A stretch of 35,581 nt of DNA from a virus. A model generated the notes under the pieces. That model saw only the letters and a list, made by a program, of their open reading frames with translations, had not been told where the DNA came from and ran no database searches. Below, in pieces: positions 2,020-27,257 of the stretch; position 1 is the first letter of the stretch, and each line of letters opens with the position of its first letter. A program made the translations under genes and the position numbers. The stretch spans positions 1 through 35,581 of the IMG/VR virus record IMGVR_UViG_3300018080_000375; one strand, written 5' to 3'.

Positions 2020-3294
2020 TTACTCATATATTAAAGGTTTTAATTGCGTATTCCATATACGTTCGTAGCTGTATTTCCACTTATGAGAAACATCTGGAGC
2101 ATAAACCCTTATCTGTTTTGCAACCTCTTCATAATCCACTAAATTCTTAGCTTCGCAGTAAGTGCTATAATCCGGCACACCAGGAGTAAAAGCATCAGAG
2201 AGGAAGAATACCGCATCTCCTTCGTCAACAAACTCCCCTGCTATAGGCAGTGCGGAATTGATGCAGACAAAGTTGCCTGAGATTTGAGCCTCTAGTAGTG
2301 TATTGGGGCAGACCTCAGCTTTTGAGCCAAACACGAACACGTTTGAGACGCTGAACAGGTCCTTGATGACTTGGCGAGGCATTGCCTCCTTATTAAATAC
2401 CTCACTGGTAAAAATGTAATCTTTGCCGAACTTTAAGTTTAAACGCCTCTCGTACCAAGGCATTAATTGCTCTATTTTAAATTGCGCGTCAGGGTTTGAA
2501 GCATTGCTATTTGCGATGATGAGTGCTACCTTTGCGCCTTGACGCTTTAACTCGGCGAACGTTTCAACCACTTGTGTCAAACCTTTAGGTATTAAGCGCG
2601 TGCTGCACACCGGGAACGTTTGGATATAATCTTTATTTGGTACATCTAAAAGCTTGCATATTTTCCAGGAATAGGAGTGAAAGTCATTGAATGAGCGAAA
2701 GTCTTTTGGGTTGTAAACACAGGCCACTTTTTTAGTGTGGTAAGTTTTAGCTAAACCGTTGAGTTCTGTCTCATTCATGTACACCATATATGAATTGGGG
2801 TGGTCCAGATTGGAGTATAGCAATGTTTCAGGATATTCTGCATGAATGTTTGGCGTTTTCCATCGGGAATGGACCCAGTTTAAGTATTTCCTCTTGTCTG
2901 AAAGAGTTGACGTGATGTTCCTGTATGCTTGGTTTTGTGGTAGGAACATTCCACGGCGCTGGTAAAGTATGTCACCTGTCATGACGATGTCGTATTGTTG
3001 CAGTATGTCGTGATACAGGTTCTCGAAATGAGTGACTAGCGTGTTGAATATTTCTAGGTTGATGACACGGTGTTTGTCGTCAAACATCCCAGTAGTGCCT
3101 ATAGGAGGTTGCTCTAAAACATTAAGCTGGTTTGGGAATATAGCAGGAGGGCAGTCTGCATTAACTAAAAAATCAAAGTCTTGGTCGAAGTATTTAAGCA
3201 GTTTTGCCCGTTCAAGCCAACCAACGTGTAGAGCGTACCCAGGTTGGAATGTAGAGAAGTGTTGTAATATTGCTATTTTTGGTTTAGTTTTCAT
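2020..3294 (-). CDS. Glycosyltransferase, GT-B fold, family 4-like
   Basis: A 424-residue cytoplasmic protein. The C-terminal half has hallmarks of the GT4 nucleotide-sugar domain: a STRLIPKGL segment with Arg233 and Lys237, the strand VALIIAN, and the E-x7-E signature at Glu327 and Glu335 (AEVCPNTLLEA). The N-terminal half is a divergent acceptor domain. Length matches the family (350-450). The start has AGAGGA 5 bases upstream and overlaps the previous gene by 11 bases. It opens the glycosyltransferase/SDR/sulfotransferase-like cassette, so the likely role is building a sugar decoration on virion or host surface. Donor and acceptor are unknown. A DNA-modifying glycosyltransferase cannot be excluded but nothing specific supports it. 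Confidence 0.8.
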   Translation of the reverse strand: MKTKPKIAILQHFSTFQPGYALHVGWLERAKLLKYFDQDFDFLVNADCPPAIFPNQLNVLEQPPIGTTGMFDDKHRVINLEIFNTLVTHFENLYHDILQQYDIVMTGDILYQRRGMFLPQNQAYRNITSTLSDKRKYLNWVHSRWKTPNIHAEYPETLLYSNLDHPNSYMVYMNETELNGLAKTYHTKKVACVYNPKDFRSFNDFHSYSWKICKLLDVPNKDYIQTFPVCSTRLIPKGLTQVVETFAELKRQGAKVALIIANSNASNPDAQFKIEQLMPWYERRLNLKFGKDYIFTSEVFNKEAMPRQVIKDLFSVSNVFVFGSKAEVCPNTLLEAQISGNFVCINSALPIAGEFVDEGDAVFFLSDAFTPGVPDYSTYCEAKNLVDYEEVAKQIRVYAPDVSHKWKYSYERIWNTQLKPLIYE

Positions 3295-4896: not shown

Positions 4897-5340
4897 TTAA
4901 AGCTGTGACGTCGTCGAACTGCCGTCAAACATGGTTATCTGACCGCTGATTTTGAGTGTTACAGGTGCTGTAACAATACCGTCTGCAGGAATGCTGAAAC
5001 CAAGATTGGTAACGTACGCCGCAAACCTGAAAATTGTCTGGTCTGTGTTCGGCATAACAATCTTATAGTAACGTACATCATCCTGCTCAAAATCATCATT
5101 CATCAGCATGTAACCGGCTTGAGTGAAGAACATGTCGATTGTAATCTCTCCACCGTCCCGGAATGCAGGCTTGAACTCTTTGTAACCTCCCGTAGAGTCC
5201 AAATCCGTGACGTCATGTGTGTCGCGGGACTTGTTAGGTCCATCAATGTTAGGTATTTCGGCAACTGCTGTGTACGTACCGTCTACAGTTGTAGAGCGGT
5301 ATAGCTTAGTGCCGACACCCGATATTGCTGAAGTTGACAT
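4897..5340 (-). CDS. Major tail tube protein
   Basis: A 147-residue protein with the shape of siphovirus tail tube proteins: N-terminal G-T-K-L-Y-R strand, a PNIDGPNKSRDTHDVTDLDS segment where the subunit's long loop lies, then alternating strands with DGGEITIDMFF and a C-terminal LKISGQITMFDG. Many copies would stack as hexameric rings to form the tail tube. It follows the tail terminator gene, the usual order. Start supported by AAGGAG 9 bases upstream. It implies a long-tailed virion; no sheath gene is visible, arguing for a siphovirus over a myovirus. Confidence 0.75.
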   Translation of the reverse strand: MSTSAISGVGTKLYRSTTVDGTYTAVAEIPNIDGPNKSRDTHDVTDLDSTGGYKEFKPAFRDGGEITIDMFFTQAGYMLMNDDFEQDDVRYYKIVMPNTDQTIFRFAAYVTNLGFSIPADGIVTAPVTLKISGQITMFDGSSTTSQL

Positions 5341-5396
5341 AGTGTGTGCTCCTTAAAGTACTTGAGGGAAATAAGAGTTAAGGTACAGTGTCTGCA

Positions 5397-7758: not shown

Positions 7759-8799
7759 TTACGCTGCAGTTGTGGTTGTGGATGTTGCTGCCTCGAAAGC
7801 GTGCAGAATGCCACAATTACCGTTGTCGTCATATTTGAAACGGGGAACGGCGGCAGTCATGATTACGTTGTGTTGCTGTAATCCACCGCGAGATGTCCAC
7901 TCGACATTGGTAATATCCTGACCGATTACCAAGTCTACAACGCCGCGTTTCATTTCAACCATTACAACCTCTGCTGGCAACAGCTTGCTGGACTGGCGTA
8001 CGGCAGCAATCTGAGGGTAAGCCAGGATTCTATCAAGGAACGTACCTTCTTTATAGGTGCTCCAATCCTTGATGAGAATGCTGTAATAGTTGGTCGGGAC
8101 GTACAGGAAGAGCGGTCCACGGTGATAAGCGGCTTCCATAGTTGCGATCATGTGCTCAACGTCAGTAAGGATTGAAGTTGTTGCACTATCCCAGGGTGTG
8201 GCGATGTTTGTCCGCAAGCGCTGCGGGAATGTGGTATAGCCGTAAACGTTGTAACCATCTGCTTTCATGGTGATACCGTTGAACAAGATATCTTCCAGTT
8301 TTTCGGTAACCTTCATGGCTGCAGTTTCTGCGTGGTGAGTCTCGATTGGGTGACCGTTCTTGCGCGCGGCCATAAGCCTTCGAATGTTCAACCTGTAATC
8401 CTTATGTATGATTGGGATAGGCACACCAGTGGTGCTGTACGCAACCGTGTCTTCCTGGCCTGGAGTTACCGCAGCCATGTCAACGTTGGCATCACTCATG
8501 TCGCTCATCTGTTCGTACTCAAGGATTGTAGTTCCGAGACCGCCAACGTCAAAAGTCAAACCAAGACGTCTCAAGTCTTCGATACCATTCATAACACCAC
8601 GCGCTACCTCAACAACTGCGCCGTCGAGCATTTTCCAGTCGTCTTTCTGAAGCAGGGCGTTGGTGCGCAAGGCGTTAATGTTCAGCTCTCCATTGCTGTT
8701 GATTGCAAGCCCACGACCTCCAACCATGGCAAGGTTATAAAGCGTGTCGATGAATTGCTGGTCATTTAATGCTGTGACCATCGCTTTTTCGTTATCCAT
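7759..8799 (-). CDS. Major capsid protein
   Basis: A 346-residue protein of HK97-fold type. After an N-terminal helical arm it contains patterns seen in encapsulin-like capsid proteins: RGVMNGIEDLRRLGLTF, PGQEDTVAYSTTGVPIPIIHKDYRL, a basic LMAARKNG, EKLEDILFNG, then FLYVPTNYYSIL and a C-terminal DLVIGQDITNVEW followed by hydrophobic strands. It ends with a Thr/Ala tail. GGAGG lies 10 bases before the ATG, with a repetitive TTAAACA-rich leader further upstream. It is preceded by the decoration protein and the protease/scaffold gene, the canonical order. Confidence 0.85.
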   Translation of the reverse strand: MDNEKAMVTALNDQQFIDTLYNLAMVGGRGLAINSNGELNINALRTNALLQKDDWKMLDGAVVEVARGVMNGIEDLRRLGLTFDVGGLGTTILEYEQMSDMSDANVDMAAVTPGQEDTVAYSTTGVPIPIIHKDYRLNIRRLMAARKNGHPIETHHAETAAMKVTEKLEDILFNGITMKADGYNVYGYTTFPQRLRTNIATPWDSATTSILTDVEHMIATMEAAYHRGPLFLYVPTNYYSILIKDWSTYKEGTFLDRILAYPQIAAVRQSSKLLPAEVVMVEMKRGVVDLVIGQDITNVEWTSRGGLQQHNVIMTAAVPRFKYDDNGNCGILHAFEAATSTTTTAA

Positions 8800-8878: not shown

Positions 8879-9355
8879 TTAAGTAACGACTACTTTAATC
8901 CTTGCCACTGCAGCGCCTGCACTGTTGTCGACTGCCTCAAGTGCACGTGCCTGGATGATTTTACTGTACTGTGTTTCCGCAATAGACTCAGTTGTTCCAA
9001 CAGCCCATGCCTTGGCAGTGTGTTTGCGCAGGCAACCGTCACCATTAGACTCTAATGGATCGTTTACGGCTACTGCAGTTGCGTATGCAGGAAGCAATGC
9101 GTAAATCTCATCGCCTGGCCTGGCATGGCAGAAAGCCACCCTGTCACCAGAGGCATAGTTGGTGCTAATGCCTGTTCCTTCGAATTCAGCGGCTAATGCA
9201 AACATACCTGCAGCATCTCCGCCAGCAGTGGCGTGTACAGCTACAGTATTTGCAGCGCTGTAGTAAAGAAGGTGTCCAGGAGTGATCGTACCTCCCGCTG
9301 TTCCTTCTTCATAGATAGGACGCCCTTTAAGGATTATTGTGTTATTTGCTGACAT
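8879..9355 (-). CDS. Capsid decoration / stabilisation protein
   Basis: A 158-residue, Ala/Gly/Thr-rich beta protein (ITPGHLLYYSAANTVAVHATAGGDAAGMFALA ..., then YASGDRVAFCHARPGDEIYALL). These patterns are those of small head decoration proteins that bind the capsid surface, often encoded just before the major capsid protein, as here. Strong AGGAGG site 8 bases upstream of ATG. No signal peptide. Confidence 0.7.
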   Translation of the reverse strand: MSANNTIILKGRPIYEEGTAGGTITPGHLLYYSAANTVAVHATAGGDAAGMFALAAEFEGTGISTNYASGDRVAFCHARPGDEIYALLPAYATAVAVNDPLESNGDGCLRKHTAKAWAVGTTESIAETQYSKIIQARALEAVDNSAGAAVARIKVVVT

Positions 9356-9424: not shown

Positions 9425-11044
9425 TTACGCATTCCCTTCAACCTTTGCAGCTAACACGCTCGGCATATCCGGTACAGCATTTTCGCCGTCACTGGAAAGC
9501 GGAATAAAAGCCCCTCTGGTGTCAAACTGGCCAACTGGTATCAGGTTGCTTTCAACTTCCTGCAGTTCATTCAGGGTCATCTTGCTCAAAGTCTCCTTGC
9601 CGAACTTGTTGAATTTGTTTGCCAGGATACGGTTAACCGCTTCACTGACTTTCTCTTTCTGAAGTTCAGCGGCAACTAGTGCAGCTATTCTTTCCTCAGA
9701 AATGTCCTGTTTGTTGTCCGCATTGTTTTCCACGTTGGCAGCGGGTTTGGGGGCTTCCGTGTCCTGTTTGTTGTCCTCTTTTCCCTTGACCTGATTAAGG
9801 ATGAGGTTAAGCTGACACTCCTTCATTGCTGTAAGCGCATCCCTGTCGTCCTCTGTAAAGCACTCGATTTGCTCGTTTGCAATGATTGCGTTTACCATTT
9901 CATCTGTGTTCATGTTTTCCTCCGTGTTTGTGTTTGGTGTTTCTGTTTTGGTGTTTGTTTTTATGCCGTCGTCACTGTCAGTGTTTTCTTTGTTGATTGC
10001 GGGTTTCACCGGCTCAAAACTAACGACTGCTCTGACCTCTTCTATATTGTCGTGGAGAGTTATATTGTCGTTTGCGTCGACATTATAGCCACGTTTATAG
10101 AGCTTGGTTTTTCCAGTTGAGTCTTCCAATTCATAGACAAAGTGATCACTGAACATATAATTGCTGGAGAGCCATATGTAGCTGTAGTTCGGGTTGTTAC
10201 TCTGCTCCTCCCTTAATCGCTCTATGATTACCTGCCTTTTAGTTCCGTATGAAAGTTCGTTATCCTTTAATTCCGTATTTGTTTCATTCCCTTTAAAGAA
10301 CTCTTTCATACGCGTGAGGAAGGATTTTTTATCGTTATCCTCACTGTTTGTTTCTGTTTCAGTTGTTGTGTTGTTAGCTGTCTTTAAGTTCTCGTCCATG
10401 TTTGTTTCCTCACCTCCTTTGTTGTTTGGTGGTTTTGTTTTATTGTTTCGCGGCGCGCCACAACCGTCTTCCCAGGAACAGGCACCTTTTGCATCAGGCA
10501 AAATTGCAAGGTGGTCCGGGCGGAAATTAGTGGCTACCTCGTTGTAGGGTTCTTCATTCCAGGTGCCGGACTGTGGAATCGCGTCCATGAAGAGTCCGGT
10601 GCTCACCTCTAGAGGCTCTTTTGCATTTAGTGCTGGAATGATTTCTGGGCGTAAGGCATTGATGCGTGCATTCTCCAACCATATCTCGCCATAAAGCTTT
10701 GTGTTATCTTTGATTGCAGTGTTGAAGAACCTACCGACGCAAAGAGTGTCTAGGACAGGGGGAGAGTTAGCTGAAATAGGCATCCCGTCATTGCCAACTG
10801 GGTGGTCTAGTGTTATAGGCACTCCGGACCATGCAGCAGGGTGTTTGTTCAGCTCTTCCTGTGTGTACAGGATTCCGTTATGGACGCCCTCGACCAATGC
10901 GATCACAGGTACAACCGTATGGGCCTTGTTGTTGTAGATCTCGCTTCTGATGTTTCCGTCAAGGTTGGCTTTAAAGCTTGCCGCCTGGTTCAGGTTTACC
11001 TTAAGGTTCACTTTAAGAGTTTCTGTTTTACTCGTTTCGCTCAT
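9425..11044 (-). CDS. Prohead protease-scaffold fusion (DUF2213-like)
   Basis: A 539-residue protein. Residues 30-195 match the DUF2213 prohead protease domain: VPVIALVEGVHNG, ITLDHPVG with His81, EVSTGLF with Ser148 and FRPDHLAIL with His178; the His/Ser residues are the likely catalytic set. A Pro/Asn-rich linker follows (about 196-215), then a small domain with SYIWLSSNYMFSDHFVYEL and a charged, coiled-coil scaffold region to the end. It should cut itself and the scaffold during procapsid maturation. Two internal in-frame ATGs (10399 and 9913), each with an excellent ribosome site, probably give separate scaffold proteins of 324 and 162 residues. The first ATG overlaps the gene upstream by 17 bases. 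Confidence 0.8.
   Translation of the reverse strand: MSETSKTETLKVNLKVNLNQAASFKANLDGNIRSEIYNNKAHTVVPVIALVEGVHNGILYTQEELNKHPAAWSGVPITLDHPVGNDGMPISANSPPVLDTLCVGRFFNTAIKDNTKLYGEIWLENARINALRPEIIPALNAKEPLEVSTGLFMDAIPQSGTWNEEPYNEVATNFRPDHLAILPDAKGACSWEDGCGAPRNNKTKPPNNKGGEETNMDENLKTANNTTTETETNSEDNDKKSFLTRMKEFFKGNETNTELKDNELSYGTKRQVIIERLREEQSNNPNYSYIWLSSNYMFSDHFVYELEDSTGKTKLYKRGYNVDANDNITLHDNIEEVRAVVSFEPVKPAINKENTDSDDGIKTNTKTETPNTNTEENMNTDEMVNAIIANEQIECFTEDDRDALTAMKECQLNLILNQVKGKEDNKQDTEAPKPAANVENNADNKQDISEERIAALVAAELQKEKVSEAVNRILANKFNKFGKETLSKMTLNELQEVESNLIPVGQFDTRGAFIPLSSDGENAVPDMPSVLAAKVEGNA
9911..9924 (-). promoter_or_regulatory. Internal start site 2 within protease/scaffold gene
   Basis: CGGAGGA lies 5 bases before an in-frame ATG at 9913 (residue 378 of the full protein). 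Translation from here would give a 162-residue acidic, helical C-terminal protein. The preceding residues are a low-complexity Thr/Asn/Glu linker, a natural domain boundary. Confidence 0.5.
10397..10420 (-). promoter_or_regulatory. Internal start site 1 within protease/scaffold gene
   Basis: AAAGGAGGTGAGG, among the strongest Shine-Dalgarno matches in the window, precedes an in-frame ATG at 10399 (residue 216). The product would be a 324-residue scaffold without protease. This mirrors lambda gpC/gpNu3 and similar nested scaffold genes. Confidence 0.6.
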
Positions 11045-14014: not shown

Positions 14015-16750
14015 TTATTGCAGTGTTATACCAACGCATTTTTCAGTCACTGAGTCGAAAAATGCATACACACCCCCAACAGGTGCGGCTACTAATTCTT
14101 GACTTGAGGTTACTAGTGCCGAGGCTGGAATTGTCACTGTGATGGTTTCGTTTGCTGAGATGTCGTAAGTCGCCTCTGCATTAAGAGTTACTGTTACTTG
14201 TGTGCTACTGTCTCTACTCACATCTGTGTAGTCTAAACCAGCTTTTACGACCGCATCCCAACCGTAAATCTCTGAACAGTTACTGTCTATTCCGTTGATT
14301 ATTGCTGTCGTTATTGCGTTATCATCTCCTACTGTAGGTCCCCAAGTATCATTGGTGAGAGTTATTATTATGGTCTTGCCGCCAGAGACTATTTCGGCTT
14401 CTGTGCTAGTTGGAAGGAAAGTACCAGACAAGGCGGCTGCAGGGTCATTTTCAGCAGTCACTGCGAACGTCGGTGATGCAGTTATTTGTGAACCGCCAGT
14501 TACTGCAGTTCCAGGTATTGTTACAGTTATGGTCTCGTCTGTGAACGGGTTGTAAGCTGCACTAGCTGAAAGAGTTATTGTGACAGTTGTGTCGTTTGTG
14601 CGGACGACGGCACTAGTTGACTCGTTGTCGCGTACCTCATTATTCCAGCCGTATGTTTGAGAAGTTCCTGCATCTAACCCGTCAATTATGTTTTGCCGCT
14701 CGGATTCGAAAAGGGTTGGTGCTCCATCCGTTAAAATCTCTATTGCCGAGATCATCGGGTTTCCGGCAGAGCCTCTATCTAGCGTTATGTTCAGTTCACC
14801 GTCTGATACTGTTGTTGAGATGTTTTCAGTGTGTGCAGTGTCTGTTCCTACCTCTGAGATTATGTCTAGGTCGTCCACTTCCAGCACACCCTCAACGTAC
14901 ACATCGAATATTCTCTGTCCTGCACTACTGTGGTAAATGTCAGCGAAGTGCAGGTTGACTGTGTAGTTACCGTTTTCCACAGTGAAAGCGTAGTCCAAAT
15001 CTGGTGCGGCTTCCGGGTCCCACCTGTAGGCTTGGTACAGTTCATCGTCTGTTGTTCCAGCTATTGCATCAGAGGTTGATCCTGTGTTGCCGGTGTTGTA
15101 GTTCGTGTCTGCTGACCAGACGTTACTGCTTCCATCAGTGTATTCTGTTCCACCACAGTTTACGCGTACGGTTGCGTCATTAGAGACCCAGGCATTGTCT
15201 ACTAGAGTGACTATTATAGTCTCGCCGCCTGCAACTATTTCGGATTCCGTTACTCCGCCGGAGACGACTGTCCCTGTGACAGTGGCCCCTTCGGTTATGT
15301 AGATGTCGCCACCTATTTCCCAAGCTGCCCCCTGGTCGTCCTGGTCGCCGAAAGTGAAAGTGAGTGGGAAAGTAGTATCTTCTACCTCAAGCAAATCGTC
15401 ATACGTGTCACCGAGGTCTTCACCTGCGTTGATGCAGGGTGAGTTTGATTGTAGCGCAAAATCTGTGGCAGAGAGGCTACCTTCAGTTAAAGATTGCCAA
15501 CCTTCTGTTTTATATAAATTCGGTGTCCCTATTACGTCATTAGTGCCAGACTGGTCGCCTGAGATGCTTTCAGACCAGTTGTTATAATCCCACGTTAAGC
15601 CTGATGTGGTAGAAGGACCAGAATATAAATAACTACCCCCGGCTTGCCAAAAAAGATTATTCTTAATCGCAGAATTTGACCAATCACCTCCCAAACTATT
15701 CGACGTAGCAATCATTCCATAACAACCAACGATCGTGTTATTGTAAACTAAAATAGAATCAAAAGTGAAAGTTCGTACACCTATATATATACCCCAACAT
15801 CGGTTGGCTATAAGGTTGCCGTATATTTGAATGTCTTCAACGCGATCTTCGGTTATATTTTCATCCGCAACAGAGATTCCGTTGCCGCAATGATTACCGG
15901 AACCGCTGCACCTGAAGTATTCTGAGTCAGTTGTTCCGTAGATCATATTATATCTAACAATTGCTCGTTTTGCTGCTTCTGGGTATATTCCAGCAGAGTG
16001 GCTCGTACCAATAATGTTATATTCAGCTATGCAATCATCAGCAGTGCCTTGATTGCCAAAAAAACCAATTCCTTCGCCGTGATTGTCAGTTAACGTGCAA
16101 TATCTTACCGTGAGTGAGTCTGAGTGGGATGCGTTAATTGTAGCAGGCCAGTCGCCGCCATTAACACGGCTATACTCCCCGGCATTGTGTATAGTGCAAT
16201 TTTCAACTAAGCCGTTGTCACAGTGCCAATAAAATATAATGCCACCATTTTCAACATTGTCTATATCAACATTAGTAACTTCTCCATAATCTGACCCATT
16301 CGCAGTAATACCGTGAAACCTTATACCCCACCCCTCTGAATTTCTGATATCTAAATTAGTGACTGTAACATAATCTTGTAAATAAACATGAATCAGACCC
16401 TCGGAAAAAGCACTTGGAGAAGTGTGATTGCCATCAATGATAGGCTTATTGCCACTAACTCCAATTGTTCCAGCTCCGTAATATGCACCAATAACCGCAC
16501 GATCTTCAGCGCTTCCCTCCCAATCTACCCACAACTGTTCTCCTGTCCACGTATCTCCACATAAAAAGTAAACATCATCCCCAGTTGCAAGGGAAAGACT
16601 ATTAACCTTTGCTATTGTCTTGTATGGGGTGCTGTAAGAGCCGTCACCCGTAGTGTCATTCCCAAGCGAATCGCTAACGAAAATGTCAGCGGCAAATCCC
16701 TGTGACGCTATCAGTAGAAATATTAATATATAAAACAGTCGTTTAATCAT
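14015..16750 (-). CDS. Secreted beta-helix / malectin-like protein, possible depolymerase
   Basis: A 911-residue protein. Residues 1-20 are a signal peptide (cleavage after FAA). About 21-440 form a right-handed parallel beta-helix of the pectate-lyase superfamily with repeated N-x-I/V and G-I-x-F/Y turns (VTNLDIRNSEGWGIRFHG, VYNNTIVG) and the closing NSPCINAG motif. About 500-680 is a malectin-like carbohydrate-binding domain (YRWDPEAAPDLDYAF, VNLHFADIYHSSAGQRIFDVYV). From 680 on there are two repeats ending in ETITVTIP. Beta-helices on phage fibres often cut capsular polysaccharide, but no catalytic pair can be named here. Its start overlaps the LamG-like gene by 8 bases. Confidence 0.7.
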   Translation of the reverse strand: MIKRLFYILIFLLIASQGFAADIFVSDSLGNDTTGDGSYSTPYKTIAKVNSLSLATGDDVYFLCGDTWTGEQLWVDWEGSAEDRAVIGAYYGAGTIGVSGNKPIIDGNHTSPSAFSEGLIHVYLQDYVTVTNLDIRNSEGWGIRFHGITANGSDYGEVTNVDIDNVENGGIIFYWHCDNGLVENCTIHNAGEYSRVNGGDWPATINASHSDSLTVRYCTLTDNHGEGIGFFGNQGTADDCIAEYNIIGTSHSAGIYPEAAKRAIVRYNMIYGTTDSEYFRCSGSGNHCGNGISVADENITEDRVEDIQIYGNLIANRCWGIYIGVRTFTFDSILVYNNTIVGCYGMIATSNSLGGDWSNSAIKNNLFWQAGGSYLYSGPSTTSGLTWDYNNWSESISGDQSGTNDVIGTPNLYKTEGWQSLTEGSLSATDFALQSNSPCINAGEDLGDTYDDLLEVEDTTFPLTFTFGDQDDQGAAWEIGGDIYITEGATVTGTVVSGGVTESEIVAGGETIIVTLVDNAWVSNDATVRVNCGGTEYTDGSSNVWSADTNYNTGNTGSTSDAIAGTTDDELYQAYRWDPEAAPDLDYAFTVENGNYTVNLHFADIYHSSAGQRIFDVYVEGVLEVDDLDIISEVGTDTAHTENISTTVSDGELNITLDRGSAGNPMISAIEILTDGAPTLFESERQNIIDGLDAGTSQTYGWNNEVRDNESTSAVVRTNDTTVTITLSASAAYNPFTDETITVTIPGTAVTGGSQITASPTFAVTAENDPAAALSGTFLPTSTEAEIVSGGKTIIITLTNDTWGPTVGDDNAITTAIINGIDSNCSEIYGWDAVVKAGLDYTDVSRDSSTQVTVTLNAEATYDISANETITVTIPASALVTSSQELVAAPVGGVYAFFDSVTEKCVGITLQ

Positions 16751-18752
16751 TTCCGCCCTTTATCCCGTCTATACCGTTTGTCATTACATCACTAACCTCT
16801 GCAGCGCTTATTGCTCTGTCAAATATAATCACTTCATCAATAAGGCCATCCGCAGGAGAAGAATCACTACTTATAGTGAACTGGTCGCTACCGTTGTAGA
16901 TTCCAGCACTATAAGTTTTAGGATTATCTGCCCCATTACTATCAAGCGACCCGTCAAAATAAACGCGCATATCTGTGTCATCATAAACAGCGCAAATGTG
17001 GTGCCAGTCAGTGTCATCTATGTCTGTTGCCCCAGTGCACTCGGTGTATGCTGAACCGTCACTAGATAGGAAGAACTTTATGCCGCCATCAGAGGTGTCG
17101 TAGCGCACTCTATATTGTAACTGCCCAGTGTCATACTTCTCAACAAAACGTTGATCCGCACTGTAACTTTCCAGCTTAACCCAGAAGCAAATAGAGATGG
17201 GTTGGTCGGCACCATTAATATCTGTGGAGCCTCCATCTGCTGCGTAGAGGTAATCTGCATCCCCTGCCTCGAAATCTCTACTGTTGCCACCGAAACCGGA
17301 AGGAACAGTTGCTGAGGTCGGCATGTCGTCACCGCTTGATTCAGTCAGTGTTGTACCTTCACCACTCCTATCTGTTTCAGTACTTGAGGAGTTCATGAAC
17401 CATGCACCCATACAGTTTGCGTCTGCGGTGTAATCCGTTACTGTTGAAGTAGTTACTAAACCTCCCATGCTGACTTCAATGCAGTCCGCACTTTGGGCCA
17501 CACCAACTACTTGAACCTTATCTGCGCCTGTGGGTTTTGTTTGAGTGAGTCCTTCAGTGGTTGTAGGGTCTGTGCTGACGTAAACAGGTTCACCGACTGT
17601 CCAGTTCCAGTCTGTTTCGCATATGCCACCGTTTAACAATATGCGCTTTGATCCAGTGCCGGTATCCGTCATGAGTCCTATTGCAGGCATGTCACCTGCA
17701 TCAGCATCTGCAACAATCAACTCACCGTCCGTATCGATATGCATTGCCTGGCCGAAACTGGTTGACGCCCCACTGTCTACTGTGTAGTACCGTACAAACC
17801 CGTGGTAATCCTGGTCACTATTGTCGAATGTTTTAAAGTATATGCGAGGCTGAAGGTTCGTATCACCGATGGTCATGTCCTCAGTACCGAAGTTGCCGTA
17901 AACAATTATCGCCTCTGAACCTCCGCGCATGGCTTTAAGGGCTGCAGAGCCATTTTCAGCGCCATCTCCTCCACTCACATGATCACTTTCAACAGTGCCA
18001 CATTCCTTATCGGTTCCCGGACTGTCTGAATCCCTGAATATCCATGCCGGATCAGCACTAGCGTCAAGAGTGATAGAAGTCGCTGTAGCATCACCCAATA
18101 TAGGAGTTACTAGTGTAGGGGACTCATTAAACACCACCTCGCCTGTCCCGATGCGCCCAGTTGCTATGCTAAGTAAGCTTAATTGCGTTGAGTCTGAAGT
18201 GTTCCCGTCAATGTTTTCCAATTCTGTTTCGTTTATTTCTGCACTGCCTATTGTAATGGTACCTGTGAACGTAGGTGAGGCGAGGGGCGCTTTCGCATCT
18301 ATCTGGTTCTGGATTAAGCTAGTCACGCCGTCTAAGTACCCTAGTTCAGTAGATGTTACGTCACTCACAGCAATGTCGCCTGACCCGTCCGTGATTAGCG
18401 CACGGTTTATAGTCAAATCTTCAAAATCAAGTGTACCTACAGTCATATCCATTATCAACCAGGCTCCTGTGCTCGAACGGTCGTTAGGCACTATTGTTCC
18501 AGGAGAACTTTCAGATGCGCTGGATGTCTCGTCGTAGTAATGCAGGTATAAAACATTGCTGACTACAGTAAATGCGATATCTCCATCGTCAAGGCGAGAA
18601 TCGTCTACCGAAATGCCGTCTAGTGCGGTGTTTGATGGCCTGGCTCCAGAACCTGTTAAGCCTATACAGCCCCACTGATTACTAAACGCAGATTCCGTGA
18701 ACAGGATAAATAGGCAAAAACAGAAAAATACACACATTAATAATTTTTTCAT
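16743..18752 (-). CDS. Signal-peptide-bearing tail-fibre-like protein with LamG-type domain
   Basis: A 669-residue protein. A longer in-frame start at 18926 overlaps the upstream gene; ATG at 18752 begins a clear signal peptide (MKKLLMCVFFCFCLFILF, cleavage after AFS) and has AGGGG 11 bases upstream. The body carries phage-fibre phrases such as TELGYLDGVTSLIQNQIDAK followed by PLASPTFTGT, as in many tail fibres. Residues about 440-655 form a concanavalin A/LamG-like jelly roll (ISICFWVKLES, DTDWHHICAVYD, GLIDEVIIFDRAIS). It probably binds a surface glycan. The combination of export signal and fibre sequence is unusual. Confidence 0.7.
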   Translation of the reverse strand: MKKLLMCVFFCFCLFILFTESAFSNQWGCIGLTGSGARPSNTALDGISVDDSRLDDGDIAFTVVSNVLYLHYYDETSSASESSPGTIVPNDRSSTGAWLIMDMTVGTLDFEDLTINRALITDGSGDIAVSDVTSTELGYLDGVTSLIQNQIDAKAPLASPTFTGTITIGSAEINETELENIDGNTSDSTQLSLLSIATGRIGTGEVVFNESPTLVTPILGDATATSITLDASADPAWIFRDSDSPGTDKECGTVESDHVSGGDGAENGSAALKAMRGGSEAIIVYGNFGTEDMTIGDTNLQPRIYFKTFDNSDQDYHGFVRYYTVDSGASTSFGQAMHIDTDGELIVADADAGDMPAIGLMTDTGTGSKRILLNGGICETDWNWTVGEPVYVSTDPTTTEGLTQTKPTGADKVQVVGVAQSADCIEVSMGGLVTTSTVTDYTADANCMGAWFMNSSSTETDRSGEGTTLTESSGDDMPTSATVPSGFGGNSRDFEAGDADYLYAADGGSTDINGADQPISICFWVKLESYSADQRFVEKYDTGQLQYRVRYDTSDGGIKFFLSSDGSAYTECTGATDIDDTDWHHICAVYDDTDMRVYFDGSLDSNGADNPKTYSAGIYNGSDQFTISSDSSPADGLIDEVIIFDRAISAAEVSDVMTNGIDGIKGGND

Positions 18753-18772
18753 AGTAGGTAAACCCCTAATTG

Positions 18773-20839
18773 CTATTCTGTGTAATTGACGCGCAAAAAC
18801 ACGCGAGTATTGTACGGGACTGCATAAATACCTCCGCGCTTCCACATGTCGTAACCGAACACTGTATCCTCTAGTTCCTGGAGAGTCCAGCTCGCATTGG
18901 TTACAGTCTCTGTAAAGTTTGTCCAAGTAACTGAATCCAGGTTCTGGTCAGTCCCTTCCACCTGTGACTCAGCTCCTATTTTCCAGTTAGGCTCTAGTAC
19001 TCCGTACCATGAAGCAGTGTTAAATGACGCTCTAGCCCTGAAATGCATCACTACGGAAGATATACTCATACCTGTTGCGTCATCTGCGTCGAAATCATGA
19101 CCGTACAGATCGTAATAATGCGTCTCACTGTTATTTTTTATGTATGTTGTTGTATCATCCGGTGAATCATAGTATTCATCATTCACGGCTTCGTAATTAT
19201 CATCCATGCCGGAACCCACAATAGTACAACTGGTGTTATTGTCACTCCTGGCGATAAGATCAAAGTAAGAATTTTCATAATCGTACGTATACGTTGTGAA
19301 AGATGTTGAACTTTTCCTGTCTGCCCACGTTCCACTATACGTCGATAGATCAGCACCGGAAGAGGTCGCCACCATAGAACCCACTGACTCACCGTCTCCT
19401 ATATAAGTGGTGTAGTCAGTTCCGCTTGAAAGCAGTGAGATTGTTATATTTGCCCCGTACCGTCGAGAGGAAAGATCCAAATCAGAGGAGTCATAAAGCA
19501 TGAACTTGTCATTCTGTCCACCCCTGTCTACGTCAATTCTTGTAACATTTGCGCGAACTGTTCCATTTGCGTCATGTGCATCAGTCCAGCCACCTACGTA
19601 TAGATGTCCATTGTCGTATAGAGTGGTGCCGAACGCCACAAAACCTCCGTTGAAATGTCCTCCAAACGACCTGCACCAGTTAACAGTTGTCGGGTTAGAT
19701 TTGGCAACATCTAGTATGACGGCAGAGTGCTTGTGCTTTAGAGTGTATTCATCACTAGATCCAATACCTGAGTGAGGTACGTAACCCACAGAAATAAAAA
19801 GACTGTCGTCGTCCTGGTCAAAACCTAGACCTCTAATCATTGGCATGGTCGAATCACTTATTTCCCAAATGTTCGTCACTGAAATGTTTGTAGAGATGTC
19901 AAATTTACCCAGTAGGATGTTGTACCCATCTTCAGCATCATTTTCAGTGTGACCTAGTGCCCAAATCACATCCCCATCCGAGGAGTCTATCAGGATCTCA
20001 GAAAACAGCAAATCAAACTGCCACACCTCGCCTCGTCCTAGAGTGACTCCATTCACGTACTCCGCAGTTACGTCATGATCAGCATCCACACTTAATTTAG
20101 TAATAGTTGCATACCATTCCCCTGTGTCTAGATTCTCAAGTCCAGCTACATACAGTGCCTTATCGGACGGGTCCTGAGTCACGTCATGCCACATTGAACC
20201 GTTAAGGTTCCCAGATTGGGAATAGTACCAGTTGTGTTCACTTGTTTCCACAGTGATGTCATCCGGGTCTATTGTCCATATTGTAGGGATGATAACTGCT
20301 AAAATGGTCTGGTCGCCAACCACGTAAATCCTGTCATTACCGTCATAATCTACACCTAAATATATGTTCTGACCCTGAGTTATTGAGGCTTCCGTGCAAC
20401 GCTTGAAAGTTTTAGTGCTCCAATCTGAGCGTGTTATTTTATTTATGAACATTTCGTCATCAATAAATCCGCACATGTACAAGTAGGTATCGTCACCAGT
20501 TATTGCCTGAAAATTGCTACCTGTTCCATCGTTATGGTACACGTTTACTTCATTGTCTAGATCATCAGTGTCAACTTCGACCAACTGAGAGCGTCTACTA
20601 GTGCTAGCTTGCCCGTGACCTTCATTGACAACCGCTATAAATAAGTCATTCCCATCAATCCACATGTGGTGGACTCCACCCATATCGTAACTGCTGTCTG
20701 TTATTACAACAGTCTCTGAGTAATCGTAGGAAGTACCAACTGCTGGCATGTTGCCGTGCAAAATAAGAATTCCGGCATATGCTGTACAGCAAAACAGTAT
20801 AATGCAAAGCACGAAGATTGACAGAAGTTTAGTTTTCAT
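18773..20839 (-). CDS. Secreted beta-propeller-like protein with C-terminal sandwich domain
   Basis: A 688-residue protein with a signal peptide (MKTKLLSIFVLCIILF, cleavage after AYA). Residues about 30-430 contain recurring blades (DTYLYMCGFI, KALYVAGLEN, GHLYVGGWTDA) interspersed with acidic turns, as in beta-propellers. The last 230 residues form a separate beta-sandwich (ISSVVMHFRARA, then W-x-L-Q-E-L-E ... VFLRVNYTE) of the type found at the tips of environmental phage fibres. A GTG at 20866 has a better ribosome site (GGAG 11 bases before) and is an alternative start, adding nine residues before the signal peptide. Confidence 0.65.
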   Translation of the reverse strand: MKTKLLSIFVLCIILFCCTAYAGILILHGNMPAVGTSYDYSETVVITDSSYDMGGVHHMWIDGNDLFIAVVNEGHGQASTSRRSQLVEVDTDDLDNEVNVYHNDGTGSNFQAITGDDTYLYMCGFIDDEMFINKITRSDWSTKTFKRCTEASITQGQNIYLGVDYDGNDRIYVVGDQTILAVIIPTIWTIDPDDITVETSEHNWYYSQSGNLNGSMWHDVTQDPSDKALYVAGLENLDTGEWYATITKLSVDADHDVTAEYVNGVTLGRGEVWQFDLLFSEILIDSSDGDVIWALGHTENDAEDGYNILLGKFDISTNISVTNIWEISDSTMPMIRGLGFDQDDDSLFISVGYVPHSGIGSSDEYTLKHKHSAVILDVAKSNPTTVNWCRSFGGHFNGGFVAFGTTLYDNGHLYVGGWTDAHDANGTVRANVTRIDVDRGGQNDKFMLYDSSDLDLSSRRYGANITISLLSSGTDYTTYIGDGESVGSMVATSSGADLSTYSGTWADRKSSTSFTTYTYDYENSYFDLIARSDNNTSCTIVGSGMDDNYEAVNDEYYDSPDDTTTYIKNNSETHYYDLYGHDFDADDATGMSISSVVMHFRARASFNTASWYGVLEPNWKIGAESQVEGTDQNLDSVTWTNFTETVTNASWTLQELEDTVFGYDMWKRGGIYAVPYNTRVFLRVNYTE

Positions 20840-20872: not shown

Positions 20873-23800
20873 TTAGTCTCCTATATTTGACGTGTATTCC
20901 ATTTTCATTCCCAGTATGTGCAGAGTGGCTACTGCTGTAGTAGTGCCTGTTGCATCTAATTGCCACCTGAAATATAAAGTGTCGCCACCTGCACAAGTCC
21001 CATTTGCTGTTACTGCAGCGGAGGTAGTGTGGTCTACAGCGTTAGAGCCTGTAACTGCGGCGTCATCTATTGCCACTTCACTACCCCAAGTGTTATTGAC
21101 TGTTTCTGTGGCTCCTCTGCACATTGCTGCAATGTCACTATTTAATGCACTAGTGTCTGCCGCTGTTTGCAGATATTCAAGTTCGAAAGTCACAGTTCCT
21201 GCATCCCAGGAATCAGGCATAACTATGTGACCATACAGGGTCGAGCTGTCATTGTCCGCGCATATTGCTGTGTACTGCATGGGGCCAGAGTTTATGGTCA
21301 CGGGGTCAGAAGCCACGTCGCATTGGGTGCCGTCTGGAATCATACCTGCCGCATCCCAGAACACAGACTCCACAATTGTCGAGATGTGTTCAGAGTCTAC
21401 AGAGTTTGCAGCATAATGTTGGGAGTCCAAACCGTCGTCGGCAACGTCAATATTTATTTCAGTGTCCGGGGATTCAGTTATGGCGAAAACGGTTCCATCA
21501 AAGTCGAGAGTTACGATGTCCGCGCCGCCTACCTGAGAGTCGCCATCTTCAACGGTTGTCATTGTTCCGCTGCCGCCACCAGCACCGTCATCATCAACTT
21601 CCTTCCAAGTGTCTGTGGATACGCAGTGGTAGAGTGAGCCATCTGTGTCTGCGTCCGTGTCAATGTATAGTTCACCGGTGGTGCAGGAGCCGGGTAATGA
21701 AGTGCCTGAACCAGTTTGCAGTGTGTCGCCAGGTTCATAGAATTGAGAGACGTCAGAGAGGGCTGCATAGAGACCCGCTTCGTTTGCAAGGTCGCCTTCT
21801 TTGCCGTTAAACGTGTCCCAGTCGCTGCCTGTAAGGAAACCCTTGACGCCTGTAGCTGCAGCCTGACCGTTTGTGTAGTCTATGGCTAAACCACTCGCGC
21901 CTTCATCGAAATCAGTTGAAAGGTACTTGACTTGCAGCGCATCCTCTTCCTCTATCAATGTAGCACTTCCGGCAGAGGGTGCAAGGTCTAAGGCGAGAGT
22001 CACTGCGGCATTCTCTGAACCAGAGCCGGATACATCTATTGCGCCACTGCCGCCATCAGCTACTGTTGCTACAAAATTACCTGTTGTGTCTGTAGAGAGA
22101 GCTACGGCATTAGCTGAAATTGTTCCATCTGCTTCCAGGTCGCCTGCATCCTCCCATTCGATTGAAGCGTCAGTGTCGTCCAGGTTGCCGGAAGCCAGAC
22201 CGACTGCTGCAGCCGTAGGTTGTCCTGCCTCACCTAGATATGTAATATCGCCCCAGTTAATGTGTGCAGCGTCCACTGAATCTGTTTGGATGCTGGTTGC
22301 TCCTGTATTGTCTATCTCGACGTCACCACTTACCTGCACTGGGTTAAAGTTTGTACCGTCCGCTACCATAATCATGCCGTCAGTGTTTGTTGCCAGGAAC
22401 AAGTCATCGCCTGAGATTGTCAAATCGCCAGCCATTGTCGTGTCGCCGTCAAACTCAACGTTGAAAAGAGTTGCTGGAGTTCCTCCGTATGCATCTGTGA
22501 ATTTGATAAAGTCGCCGTTAGAGGAACCGTCTGCAGTGTGTTGCAGTTCAAGCAAATAGGTTTCTGCGGCGAGAGAACCATCTGTGTTACGAATAATCAG
22601 TTCAGTAGTGCCATCTGTTGAAGCGCTCAGTAAATCAGCAGCGTCGTTGGTGATGAACGCGTCATCAACGTTTAAAGTGTTAGTTGAAAGTGTTATGTTG
22701 GTGCCTGCAACTAGTGCCGTCTTGCTTATGGCAATTGCGGCGGCAGCGTTTATATCCGCGTCGACTATAACTCCTGCATCTATTAAAACATTTCCTGAAC
22801 CGTCTGTCTCTATGTCCCCCCAATCTGTGGAGTGTGTAAAATGAGCATTGGTTAAACCATTATCAGCTACGTCAAGAGTTACTGCTGCATTTTCTGAACC
22901 GGACCCTGAAACCGTCACAGTTGAACTCCCGGCATCTGCAACAGTTGCCACAAAGTTTCCGGCAGTGTCTGTAGCCAGTGTTACAGCGTTTGCAGATACA
23001 GAACCGTCTGCATCTAGATCTGTAGCATCTTCCCATTCAATGGATGCATCGGTGTCGTCAAGGTTGTCTGAGGCCAGGCCAACGCCTGCTGCAGTGGTTT
23101 GACCCTCTTCGCCTAGATACGTCATTGAAGCCCAGTTTACATGTGTATCGTCTACTGAGTCCGTGTTCAGGTTTGCCGTAACAGTATTCGAAGTATCAAC
23201 AAAGTCAATATCTCCAGAGCTAACAAAGTCTGGATCGGTCACTCCTACACCGTCTATTGAAACACTATCTCCTCCTCCACCTGTAGTATCTAGATCAGTG
23301 AGGACGTTATCCTGGCACTTCTTTAGCTTGCCATCTGAATCGTCATAGAAAATGCCTCCACCTGTAGCTGCAAAACCAGAACAATCCGAAATACTGTCCG
23401 TTTCTTGAAATTCAATGCCCAATTCGTCTGCCACCAGTTCTCCGGTGAGAGTGCCGCCAGTGAGAGGCAGGTAGTTTGAGGCAGTAATGTCGTCTGCCAC
23501 CTCGTTGTCCGCCCACGGGTTCGCGGTATTAACAAGGTTTTCAGCTATTGTCCCATCCGCAATGTCAGTGAGAGTGGACTCTAAAGGTTGGTAAGCGGCA
23601 TCAGATTCTGTTGTGTTATATACTCCCACTCCGCCCTCTGTGAGAGTTGCACCTTCAATAGTTCCGCCAGAGGTCACATCGCCCTCAATGGACAGGTTCA
23701 TCTCGTACGTCCCATCTGGGTTCTCAAGGCGTATTGATTCGTCTGCGGCTGCATTTGTAGCTGTTATCTCAAGTCTGTCGTCAGTGGTTTCGTCATACTG

Positions 23801-26800
23801 AAACAGGAAATCTGCCTCTGTTCCAAAGGCCAATGCAGTATTATCTGCAACCTCTATGTTCGTGTCGTCCCAAATGAATGCTGAAATACCTCCAAAGGAC
23901 CCTCCATTATTATACTGTATTTGTGTGTCAGAACCTCCTGGAGTTCCAGACGCTCCTGTGATTGCTGCATCTAGATCGTCAAGCACATCTTGAACTGTGG
24001 TCGAATTGCTGTTGTCGAATTCATCATACACGCCAACAATGTTTGCCCCTGAATCGTTTGCCGCTGTAGTTTCCTCTAGTGATGTGGTGCCGGAATACAC
24101 TGAGGTGCTTGTGACCGAATCTGCTACATCCCAAGTCGAGCCAGCTTGTGCCGTGACTGTTAGTGTATTTGCCACTTCATCATCTGCCCAAGGATTAGCT
24201 GTGTTGACCAAGTTTTCGGCAATGGTGCCGTCAGCAATGTCGGTAAGGGTAGATTCAAGCGGCTGATATGCTGCATCAGATTCAGTCGTGTTGTAGACTG
24301 CAGTTCCGCCTTCAGTTAGTGCTGTCGCGTCAAGTGTTCCAGTTGAAGGTGTGTACGTTAAATCCCCATCTGACTCGATGCCGAGGTTTCCGCCGTCAAG
24401 ATCTCCGCCAGAGGTGAATAGGACTGCGTTAGTCTCTGCTGTAGATTCATTGTCGGTTATTGTCAAAGTTGTTGCCAGAGTTGCCAGGTCTATAGTGATG
24501 TCGTTTGGAACCTGACCGTCTGTTGCCGCCCCCTGTAAATCCTGCAAATCTATCACGCCTTCCAATGCAGATTCATACCCTGTTATATTGGCGAAAGAGT
24601 AGGTGCCGTCCGCGTCGTCCTGAAGCACGTAACCGGAACTTCCTTCACCTGTAACATCTACCAGGTCATCTAACTGGTCTACAACAGTAGGTATGGCGGC
24701 GTCTAAGTCATCCAGAACGTCTTGAACGTTTGCAGAATTTGAGTGCGTGAATTCATCAAACACTCCTATGATTGCAGCGCCAGAATCGTTAGCTGCTGTG
24801 GTTTCTTCAAGAGAGGTTGTGCCTGAATATACTGAAGTTGTTGCCACACTGTCCGCATCAAATGTCAAGTCGGAGCTAGTCACGTCAGTAAAATCAATGC
24901 TATCGTCGTCAATAGTGTCGTCTTGAATGTTTTCACCATTCAATGCAGTTAGAGATGTTCCGACGCCATCAGTTGCAAGCAGAGTTGATGTAGCTGCCGG
25001 AAACGTATACGTAGTGTTTGCTGAAATGTTGGGTATTTGCAACTCTCCATAGTGACTGTCTCCATCATATATACGCACATAAGAGCCGCCGTCACTAGAT
25101 CCATCGAGACATTCACCTACTGCGCAATCCCCTACTGCTGTAATGTCGCCAGAGCCTGAACCTGTGATTGCCGCATCCAAATCATCCAACACATCTTGTA
25201 TGTTTGCCGCATTACTGTTATCAAACTCATCAAATACTCCTATTATATAGGCTCCTGAGTCGTTTGCGGCTGTAGTCTCTTCTAATGACGTAGTGCCGGA
25301 GTAAACCGCAGTTGTGGCAACCGTATCTGCGTCAAAAGTGATATCTGTACTTGTAACATCAGTGAAATCGATGCTATCATCGTCAATAGTATCATCCTGG
25401 ATATTCTCGCCATTTAGCGCTGTAAGGCTTGTACCAACGCCGTCAGTAGCTAAAAGGGTTGAGGTTGCTGCCGGTAGAGTGTACGTAACATTCGAAGAGA
25501 CATCCGGCACCTGTACCTCACCGTAATGACTGTCGCCGTCATAGATGCGAACGTATGAACCTCCATCACTGGACCCATCAAAGCACGCTCCAGAAGCGCA
25601 ATCCCCCACACCTGTCACATCCCCACTGCCTCCAGCAATCGCTGCATCCAGGTCATCAAGCACATCCTGCACATTAGTGCTATTTGAATTATCAAACTCG
25701 TCAAACACACCAACAATGGACGCACCGGAGTCATTAGCCGCTGTAGTTTCCTCTAGTGAAGTAGTTCCTGCATATACTGAAGTGTTAATTACTGAGTCTG
25801 CGTCAAATGTAAGGTCTGAACTCGTCACATCAACAAAGTCAATACTGTCATCATCCACAGTATCATCTTGCAGGTTTTCTCCGTTTAGTGCAGTCAAATT
25901 GGTTCCCACCCCTGAAGTAGGAGTACCTAAAGCTCCGTTCAGTAACACAAAGTCGTCGTCTGTGGTTGCTGCATTGATTTCCGCCGCACTATCCCACTCT
26001 GAGTCTCTGGTTACGCCTGCAGGAATAGCTGAATCATTAACACTTCCTGATGCCCCAACTGTCAAAGTATCCGACACTTCATTATCTGCCCAAGGGTTTG
26101 CAGTATTTACGAGATTTGTTGCTATAGTTCCGTCTGCAATATCTGTAAGTATCGCCTCAAGAGGTTGGTAAGCAGCATCTGATTCGGTAATGTTGTATAC
26201 ACCTGTACCTCCCTCTGTGATAGTGTCTGCTTCTAACGATGTCCCTAAATCGTACGCTCCTGCCGCCATTTCAGCGGGGCCTATAGAGTCGTTCGGCAAA
26301 ACTATCTCGCCGTCTCCTGTACCGTCTGTAATGAACCTGTGATCCGTGATGTCGATTGAACCATAGTCTATGTCTGCTGCACCGATTGCGTCAAACCCTA
26401 CTGTAGTGTAGAATGTTCCAGTGGTTGTCACGTCGCCACAGTCTGAAGTGGTCAAGTCTACGCACGTAATGTCTGAAAAATCCAGTGCATCGTCATCTAC
26501 ACTGTCATTTTGAAGGTTTTCGCCATCAAGGTTGGTTAAAGAGCCTCCATCACCGTCCGGCGCTAAGACGTTTGTTCCTATGATCAGGCCCATAGTGGTT
26601 CGCATAGTTGCCGCATCTGCATCATCTGCATACTCATTAAAGAATGCGCCAAGTCCTGCATACGTTTCTAGCTCTGCAGCAGTGTCTATTTCAGCCGTTG
26701 TTCCAGCGTTGATTCCTATAATTCCTGTGTACGCGCTTACGTTTGCCTCTAAGCCCCCTCGCTCGTGCTCTATAGTGCCTGCATCAAAGAAGCTCGTGGC

Positions 26801-27076
26801 ACTATCTCCTGTTGCGGCGTCAACATTTGTTAAATTGCTGCCGTCGCCGTTTGGTGCTAACACATCTGTGCCTGCCTCAAGGTTCACGGTGGCTTTGAAC
26901 GTTGCCTCGTCTGCGTCGTTAATGACGGTTTGCATGTAAGCGCTGATGGTGTTCGCAACGCTGACCGCATTATCTACCTGCGCGCCAGTGTGAGACGAGT
27001 CATACGCGTACGCAAATATCGCCACCCCAAATAAGAATAGTATTGTTAGAATTATCCTGAATTTATTCGCGGACAT
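20873..27076 (-). CDS. Giant repetitive fibre/adhesin-like protein with signal peptide
   Basis: A 2067-residue protein. ATG at 27076 is chosen (GGAGG 11 bases upstream); a GTG at 27088 lies against the ribosome site. Residues 1-25 are a signal-peptide-like segment (IILTILFLFGVAIFAYA). Next comes SSHTGAQVDNAVS, a phrase common at the N terminus of phage fibres. The body is Asp/Ser/Thr/Gly-rich and built of repeats: a unit of 157-158 residues beginning TALNGEN occurs three times in tandem, TSLEETTAANDSG four times, SDAAYQPLE three times and LDDTDASIEWED twice. The last 150 residues are a globular beta domain (PDSWDAGTVTFELEYL) typical of phage appendage tips. It is almost cysteine-free until the C-terminal domain. 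Confidence 0.75.
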   Translation of the reverse strand: MSANKFRIILTILFLFGVAIFAYAYDSSHTGAQVDNAVSVANTISAYMQTVINDADEATFKATVNLEAGTDVLAPNGDGSNLTNVDAATGDSATSFFDAGTIEHERGGLEANVSAYTGIIGINAGTTAEIDTAAELETYAGLGAFFNEYADDADAATMRTTMGLIIGTNVLAPDGDGGSLTNLDGENLQNDSVDDDALDFSDITCVDLTTSDCGDVTTTGTFYTTVGFDAIGAADIDYGSIDITDHRFITDGTGDGEIVLPNDSIGPAEMAAGAYDLGTSLEADTITEGGTGVYNITESDAAYQPLEAILTDIADGTIATNLVNTANPWADNEVSDTLTVGASGSVNDSAIPAGVTRDSEWDSAAEINAATTDDDFVLLNGALGTPTSGVGTNLTALNGENLQDDTVDDDSIDFVDVTSSDLTFDADSVINTSVYAGTTSLEETTAANDSGASIVGVFDEFDNSNSTNVQDVLDDLDAAIAGGSGDVTGVGDCASGACFDGSSDGGSYVRIYDGDSHYGEVQVPDVSSNVTYTLPAATSTLLATDGVGTSLTALNGENIQDDTIDDDSIDFTDVTSTDITFDADTVATTAVYSGTTSLEETTAANDSGAYIIGVFDEFDNSNAANIQDVLDDLDAAITGSGSGDITAVGDCAVGECLDGSSDGGSYVRIYDGDSHYGELQIPNISANTTYTFPAATSTLLATDGVGTSLTALNGENIQDDTIDDDSIDFTDVTSSDLTFDADSVATTSVYSGTTSLEETTAANDSGAAIIGVFDEFTHSNSANVQDVLDDLDAAIPTVVDQLDDLVDVTGEGSSGYVLQDDADGTYSFANITGYESALEGVIDLQDLQGAATDGQVPNDITIDLATLATTLTITDNESTAETNAVLFTSGGDLDGGNLGIESDGDLTYTPSTGTLDATALTEGGTAVYNTTESDAAYQPLESTLTDIADGTIAENLVNTANPWADDEVANTLTVTAQAGSTWDVADSVTSTSVYSGTTSLEETTAANDSGANIVGVYDEFDNSNSTTVQDVLDDLDAAITGASGTPGGSDTQIQYNNGGSFGGISAFIWDDTNIEVADNTALAFGTEADFLFQYDETTDDRLEITATNAAADESIRLENPDGTYEMNLSIEGDVTSGGTIEGATLTEGGVGVYNTTESDAAYQPLESTLTDIADGTIAENLVNTANPWADNEVADDITASNYLPLTGGTLTGELVADELGIEFQETDSISDCSGFAATGGGIFYDDSDGKLKKCQDNVLTDLDTTGGGGDSVSIDGVGVTDPDFVSSGDIDFVDTSNTVTANLNTDSVDDTHVNWASMTYLGEEGQTTAAGVGLASDNLDDTDASIEWEDATDLDADGSVSANAVTLATDTAGNFVATVADAGSSTVTVSGSGSENAAVTLDVADNGLTNAHFTHSTDWGDIETDGSGNVLIDAGVIVDADINAAAAIAISKTALVAGTNITLSTNTLNVDDAFITNDAADLLSASTDGTTELIIRNTDGSLAAETYLLELQHTADGSSNGDFIKFTDAYGGTPATLFNVEFDGDTTMAGDLTISGDDLFLATNTDGMIMVADGTNFNPVQVSGDVEIDNTGATSIQTDSVDAAHINWGDITYLGEAGQPTAAAVGLASGNLDDTDASIEWEDAGDLEADGTISANAVALSTDTTGNFVATVADGGSGAIDVSGSGSENAAVTLALDLAPSAGSATLIEEEDALQVKYLSTDFDEGASGLAIDYTNGQAAATGVKGFLTGSDWDTFNGKEGDLANEAGLYAALSDVSQFYEPGDTLQTGSGTSLPGSCTTGELYIDTDADTDGSLYHCVSTDTWKEVDDDGAGGGSGTMTTVEDGDSQVGGADIVTLDFDGTVFAITESPDTEINIDVADDGLDSQHYAANSVDSEHISTIVESVFWDAAGMIPDGTQCDVASDPVTINSGPMQYTAICADNDSSTLYGHIVMPDSWDAGTVTFELEYLQTAADTSALNSDIAAMCRGATETVNNTWGSEVAIDDAAVTGSNAVDHTTSAAVTANGTCAGGDTLYFRWQLDATGTTTAVATLHILGMKMEYTSNIGD
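24690..25910 (-). repeat. Tandem protein-level repeats in giant fibre gene
   Basis: Three copies of a 471-474-base unit (phase marker TALNGEN at about 25.87, 25.40 and 24.93 kb) encode nearly identical protein but differ at many third codon positions. A partial fourth copy (TSLEETTAANDSG ... LDDLDAAI) lies at about 23.96-24.09 kb. Confidence 0.75.
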
Positions 27077-27257
27077 TGTAATTTTCACCTCCGTTATCTG
27101 TAACTACAAACGCTTCGCCGCCATTATCTGTTACGTTGAATACAGTTGTGCCGTCGCTGCCGACGTGTTTACCTGTACCCATCATCAACATGTTGCCGTA
27201 AACAGAGACAGCAAGCAGCAATAGTAGGGCTGTTATAGTGAGGAGTATTCTCGCCAT
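27063..27257 (-). CDS. Small exported protein with VTDNGGE repeat
   Basis: A 64-residue protein. The N-terminal 21 residues are a signal peptide or membrane anchor (ILLTITALLLLLAVSVYG). The mature part is short and has a direct repeat NVTDNGGEAF / VVTDNGGENY. It overlaps the start of the giant fibre by 14 bases and is only 5 bases from the gene upstream, so it is translated with them. No family is recognised; it could be a small fibre-associated or assembly protein. Confidence 0.6.
   Translation of the reverse strand: MARILLTITALLLLLAVSVYGNMLMMGTGKHVGSDGTTVFNVTDNGGEAFVVTDNGGENYNVRE

Follow-up and report, generated by a model that had tools for sequence, protein, structure and literature searches.

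The question raised by this locus is whether a single reading frame, next to the genes for the decoration and coat proteins of a virus, specifies one protein or several. The frame, of 539 codons, occupies the minus strand of the stretch of DNA that was analyzed (hereafter the window; 35,581 nt), and an earlier note had placed two in-frame ATGs within it, at 10399 and 9913, each preceded by a strong ribosome site; coordinates and frame proved exact. Were both to be used, the frame would give rise to three proteins that share a C-terminus and have independent translation starts, an outcome that we consider very probable. The features on which the argument depends are collected in Table 1.

Table 1. 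Features of the protease-scaffold frame and its neighbors; positions are those of the window.
Feature	Position	Strand	Basis
Protease-scaffold frame, 539 aa	9425..11044	-	PHROG_760; marginal DUF2213; T4 gp21 protease fold
Head decoration protein, next gene downstream	8879..9355	-	PHROG_766
Major capsid protein	7759..8799	-	PHROG_771, DUF6260; Linocin_M18 also matched
Protease domain, residues 28-197	10454..10963	-	Alignments, AlphaFold, Foldseek to T4 gp21
Middle alpha+beta domain, residues 264-340	10025..10255	-	AlphaFold, structural comparison
Helical C-terminal scaffold domain (predicted)	9425..9913	-	Predicted structure, family alignment
Ribosome site 1, AAAGGAGGTGAGG, in linker 1	10408..10420	-	Sequence, pairing energy, low pLDDT, conservation
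Candidate inner start 1 (ATG at codon 216; 324-aa product predicted)	10397..10399	-	Sequence, family conservation
Ribosome site 2, GGAGGA, just past linker 2	9918..9923	-	Sequence, pairing energy, AlphaFold
Candidate inner start 2 (ATG at codon 378; 162-aa scaffold predicted)	9911..9913	-	Sequence, most widely shared start

A profile search places the 539-aa protein in PHROG_760 (E 1e-31, residues 30-485), a family listed in PHROGs as of unknown function; the match to Pfam DUF2213 (E 5e-4, 20.6 bits) falls slightly below the Pfam cut-off of 22. Terminase and portal genes are also present within the window. The Pfam scan found no S49 protease domain in the protein, the fold being instead that of T4 gp21: the predicted protease domain, most of which has a pLDDT above 90, aligns with T4 gp21 (5jbl) at a Z of 13.9 over 152 residues (Foldseek E 3.7e-6) and more weakly with herpesvirus proteases (Z ~6). 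A sequence search of solved structures returned no usable match. In an alignment of 65 relatives H81, S148 and H178 are invariant and D177 is nearly so; the conserved serine and histidine of a putative capsid maturation protease are therefore present. The putative scaffold domain is predicted to be helical (six helices and zero strands, in a model of modest confidence) and is encoded beside the decoration and coat genes. We conclude that the product is a capsid protease of the DUF2213/PHROG_760 family whose C-terminal part is a putative helical scaffold.

Other features of the window were recorded in passing. A match to an encapsulin family (Linocin_M18, E 4e-14) was obtained for the major capsid protein, whose nearest named phage relatives include the haloarchaeal virus Hardycor1. 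A 2071-aa frame with no Pfam match (20873-27088, minus strand) lies 571 bp downstream of the portal gene; its fifth codon is an ATG with a ribosome site of -15.4, and the true start is thus probably there. A weak match to glycosyltransferase group 1 occurs amid structural genes (2020-3294, minus strand), and malectin, beta-helix and laminin-G-like domains occur in two large proteins (14015-18926, minus strand) that are probably receptor-binding parts of the tail.

The position of the two ATGs relative to the predicted structure is informative. AlphaFold gives three confident parts, one rich in beta strands (~30-188), one alpha+beta (264-340) and one composed of helices (from ~376), separated by two disordered linkers of low pLDDT (residues 190-234 and 351-374). 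Codon 216 lies inside the first linker and codon 378 directly after the second, where the helical part begins; on the predicted structure, then, the inner starts are at the borders between protease, alpha+beta domain and helical scaffold. The middle domain has a cystatin/NTF2-like arrangement (Z ~7), which is common and uninformative as to function.

The sequences preceding the two codons read AAAGGAGGTGAGGAAACAAAC-ATG at site 1 and CACGGAGGAAAAC-ATG at site 2, so that at both a candidate ribosome site and an in-frame start yield a C-terminal product ending at the common stop, the arrangement of nested protease-scaffold genes. Pairing with the anti-Shine-Dalgarno (anti-SD) sequence amounts to -15.7 to -17.2 kcal/mol at site 1, varying with the upstream stretch scored, and to -9.5 kcal/mol at site 2, the same value as for the ribosome site of the major capsid gene. 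Site 1 (-15.7) exceeds the latter and ranks first among the 449 internal NTG codons of the listed open reading frames of the window. Site 2 has a spacing of 5 nt; at site 1 a long spacing of 13 nt separates the AGGAGG core from the ATG, and a second GAGG stands 8 nt before that codon. Predicted RNA folding at the two starts is slight (-0.7 and -0.3 kcal/mol, compared with a mean of -5.6). When the codons of the gene were shuffled the best ATG score had a P of 0.0007 and the second best a P of 0.017; under a null that preserves the amino acids, the support from the window gene alone falls to P = 0.047 and 0.062.

Decisive support for the predicted inner sites comes from their conservation across the family. 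Direct scans of viral contigs with the single protein returned zero relatives, whereas an alignment-based scan of IMG/VR, its pattern drawn from the last part of the protease domain rather than from the inner starts, succeeded: 80 of at least 555 relatives were fetched. A non-redundant set of 78 genes was assembled from 67 IMG/VR genes, the window gene and ten named phages, and a site was counted as present at an energy cut-off of -8. The earlier note had proposed conservation of the ribosome sites in homologues as a check, and both sites are indeed kept at ~30% identity to the window. Site 1 is found in 56 of the 78 genes and site 2 in 60, and 28 lack one or both at this threshold; a comparable ribosome site precedes 6.2% of other in-frame NTG codons. 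Counted in bins of ten residues, sites with starts peak at window codons 210-219 (53 genes) and 370-379 (57 genes), while every other bin holds between 1 and 9 (n = 78). Both sites occur together in 50 of the 78. Thus, in place of the single nested start by which lambda and Mu are described (not a strictly defining trait), these genes have two that are conserved; one nested scaffold is known, from lambda, as the earlier note had said, and two in succession, which it expected to be uncommon, are no oddity of this phage.

At site 2 the start codon is ATG in 58 of 60 genes; the window's own ATG stands six residues off the family methionine column, which is attributable to the gap-rich linker. The predicted products have median lengths of 503, 297 and 173 aa. 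Copies on contigs of bacterial genomes, for example Paenibacillus mesophilus (L092), carry both sites. A second scan, seeded with a tight alignment of the scaffold domain only, gave 39 loci that partially overlap the first set. In 35 of 35 of these loci that were examined the scaffold lies in frame behind DUF2213, most have both sites, and a stand-alone scaffold gene is absent from all 35.

Some members of the collection depart from the common form. In six relatives (L146 and L149, also L062, L070, L089 and L099) site 1 and the middle domain lie further apart, the intervening stretch including a motif resembling YNGTESTAWS, and most of these relatives retain the inner starts. A weak match to site 1 in SF3 (codon 183) falls where the protease domain ends and was taken as chance. 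Short DUF2213 proteins with no scaffold occur in Geobacter MAGs (L101 and L103) and a Bacteroidales MAG (L115). L103 and L115 were considered as split versions and rejected, their neighbors being genes of regulator or replication type and not capsid genes; the domain may accordingly serve outside capsids too.

Conservation of a site could reflect nothing more than conservation of the amino acids encoded there. To define the contribution of the protein sequence, codons were redrawn according to each gene's own usage with the amino acids kept. The linkers are rich in Gly, Glu and Lys, and this explains part of the pairing: the family mean expected from this synonymous null is -9.1 at site 1 and -7.9 at site 2. 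The observed means are -11.9 and -11.1, respectively (z -9.1 and -9.4). Codon choice therefore favors both sites beyond the demands of the amino acids. Compared with control positions within the respective genes, RNA folding at both sites is weaker (p ~1e-9 and 5e-11), although the shared ancestry of the sequences makes such p-values too small, and it is effect size and consistency that carry the argument. Together with the codon shuffling and the spacing of SD to start, the synonymous null also renders a chance origin of the sites unlikely.

The alternative that survives best is that site 2 alone is a real start, as in lambda and Mu, and that site 1 arises incidentally from a linker rich in Gly. 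The energy that linker amino acids alone predict for site 1 is in keeping with this, as is the long spacing in the window, and ES18-like phages have site 2 without site 1. Nevertheless, the synonymous signal at site 1 is as strong as that at site 2 and its positional peak as sharp; its start codons are correctly spaced, in open RNA; and the start is ATG in 34 genes, GTG in 17 and TTG in five, despite the different residues that these encode. We regard this alternative as unlikely. Much less probable still is the proposal that the SD-like stretches are pausing signals for folding domain by domain. Both do lie at domain borders; however, pausing requires no start codon, yet an in-frame NTG follows 3-10 nt after the SD hexamer in 173 of 208 cases at the two sites and in 20 of 198 elsewhere, and the openness of the RNA is typical of initiation. 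That the short forms are cleavage products of the full-length protein, or owe their expression to internal promoters and not to internal starts on one transcript, is the least credible of the three, since neither process calls for ribosome sites and start codons that are conserved together, and a scan for promoters of sigma-70 types only detected nothing promoter-like on the coding strand of the region, even if the protein, itself a protease, is likely to generate cut forms in addition.

We return, then, to two inner starts on one transcript. The full-length form would comprise protease, middle domain and scaffold tail, the tail bringing the protease into the procapsid; initiation at site 1 would deliver the middle domain plus scaffold, a second scaffold form; and initiation at site 2 would deliver the helical scaffold alone, the bulk scaffold, equivalent to Nu3 of lambda and Z of Mu. 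On average the inner sites are stronger than the genes' own starts (mean -6.4, those starts having been partly picked by that same score), from which it follows that scaffold-bearing forms should outnumber a rare protease. Sharing the scaffold, all three forms would co-assemble beneath the coat protein, and the protease would then clear the core. It seems likely that in a widespread, mostly uncultured clade of phages one frame yields three nested proteins of capsid assembly by way of two inner ribosome sites that are conserved, and that the middle form is a second scaffold isoform with a job of its own, such as fixing copy number or linking the core to portal or protease.

The distribution of the sites offers some indication of their history. 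ES18-like phages of enterobacteria and Pseudomonas form a well-supported separate branch in which site 2, although kept, is weaker (typically -6 to -12) and individually non-significant against the synonymous null; the archaeal virus Hardycor1 has neither inner site. The plain reading of these sequences is that site 2 would be the older, general scaffold start, and that site 1 arrived with, or was retained in, the large and mostly uncultured clade that includes the window. Because ES18-like phages also have site 2, the 162-aa product is probably the counterpart of the usual nested scaffold. This alters the labels, though not the lengths, of the three products (539, 324 and 162 aa) in the earlier note: the 324-aa form, there named the scaffold, becomes the extra isoform, and the 162-aa form is more than a C-terminal piece.

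Several consequences follow should the starts be used. Programs that call one gene per frame would miss two of the three predicted products; the two-start pattern assigns a protease-scaffold role to a large family; and the ratio of protease to scaffold would be set, in a natural case, by the internal ribosome sites of one gene. Cultured relatives exist in the Brevundimonas phages MaInes and StAshley and, for site 2, in the ES18-like phages; in MaInes, which like StAshley infects Brevundimonas pondensis, the two candidate inner starts are codons 241 and 390. For the predicted middle scaffold isoform we found no description in phages; nor did the open papers that were searched describe a phage with two nested scaffolds in succession, the incomplete coverage of this literature making that weak evidence of absence.

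Comparison with known systems places the arrangement in context. In lambda, as in the window, the scaffold start (Nu3) lies inside the protease frame (C) and the products share a C-terminus, with the decoration (D) and coat (E) genes following; lambda, however, has one nested start where the window gene has two, and C is annotated as an S49-family peptidase whereas the window protein has a fold like that of T4 gp21 and herpesvirus proteases. Our ribosome-site score ranks first in lambda an ATG giving a 131-aa C-terminal product, which presumably corresponds to Nu3 as described experimentally (~132 residues). In the lambda locus of our collection (L162, 233-838 and 443) the RefSeq nu3 start is at 5132 (SD -6.4), and it is the in-frame ATG at 5342, scoring better (-9.7), that yields the 131 aa. 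In Mu (I/Z) and in the protease-scaffold of the Mu-like phage PaMx73 an in-frame inner start with an SD is found in the protease gene (PMC4378225), again one as compared to two here. The DUF2213 proteins of Salmonella phage ES18 and Oslo type (PHROG_760) are of the same family, with the same order of protease, decoration and coat and a conserved inner start 2, but the protease continues into the middle domain without an SD-bearing linker, and inner start 1 is missing. The 478-aa gp24 of Pseudomonas phage Pa193 is a putative scaffolding protein encoded beside the decoration and capsid genes, in an account whose passages on gp24 considered here do not discuss internal starts (PMC11042391). A weak profile match in the protease region (E 0.07) does no more than suggest that gp24 is related to the window protein. 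Herpesviruses, whose protease-scaffold genes (UL26/UL26.5 and the UL80 family) encode a related protease fold, provide a further comparison. They too have nested in-frame scaffold genes, several in the case of cytomegalovirus UL80, although these are expressed from separate overlapping transcripts and not from inner ribosome sites. Lambda and Mu are thus the known precedents for one nested scaffold, and the predicted two-start trait is here widened from one phage to a family.
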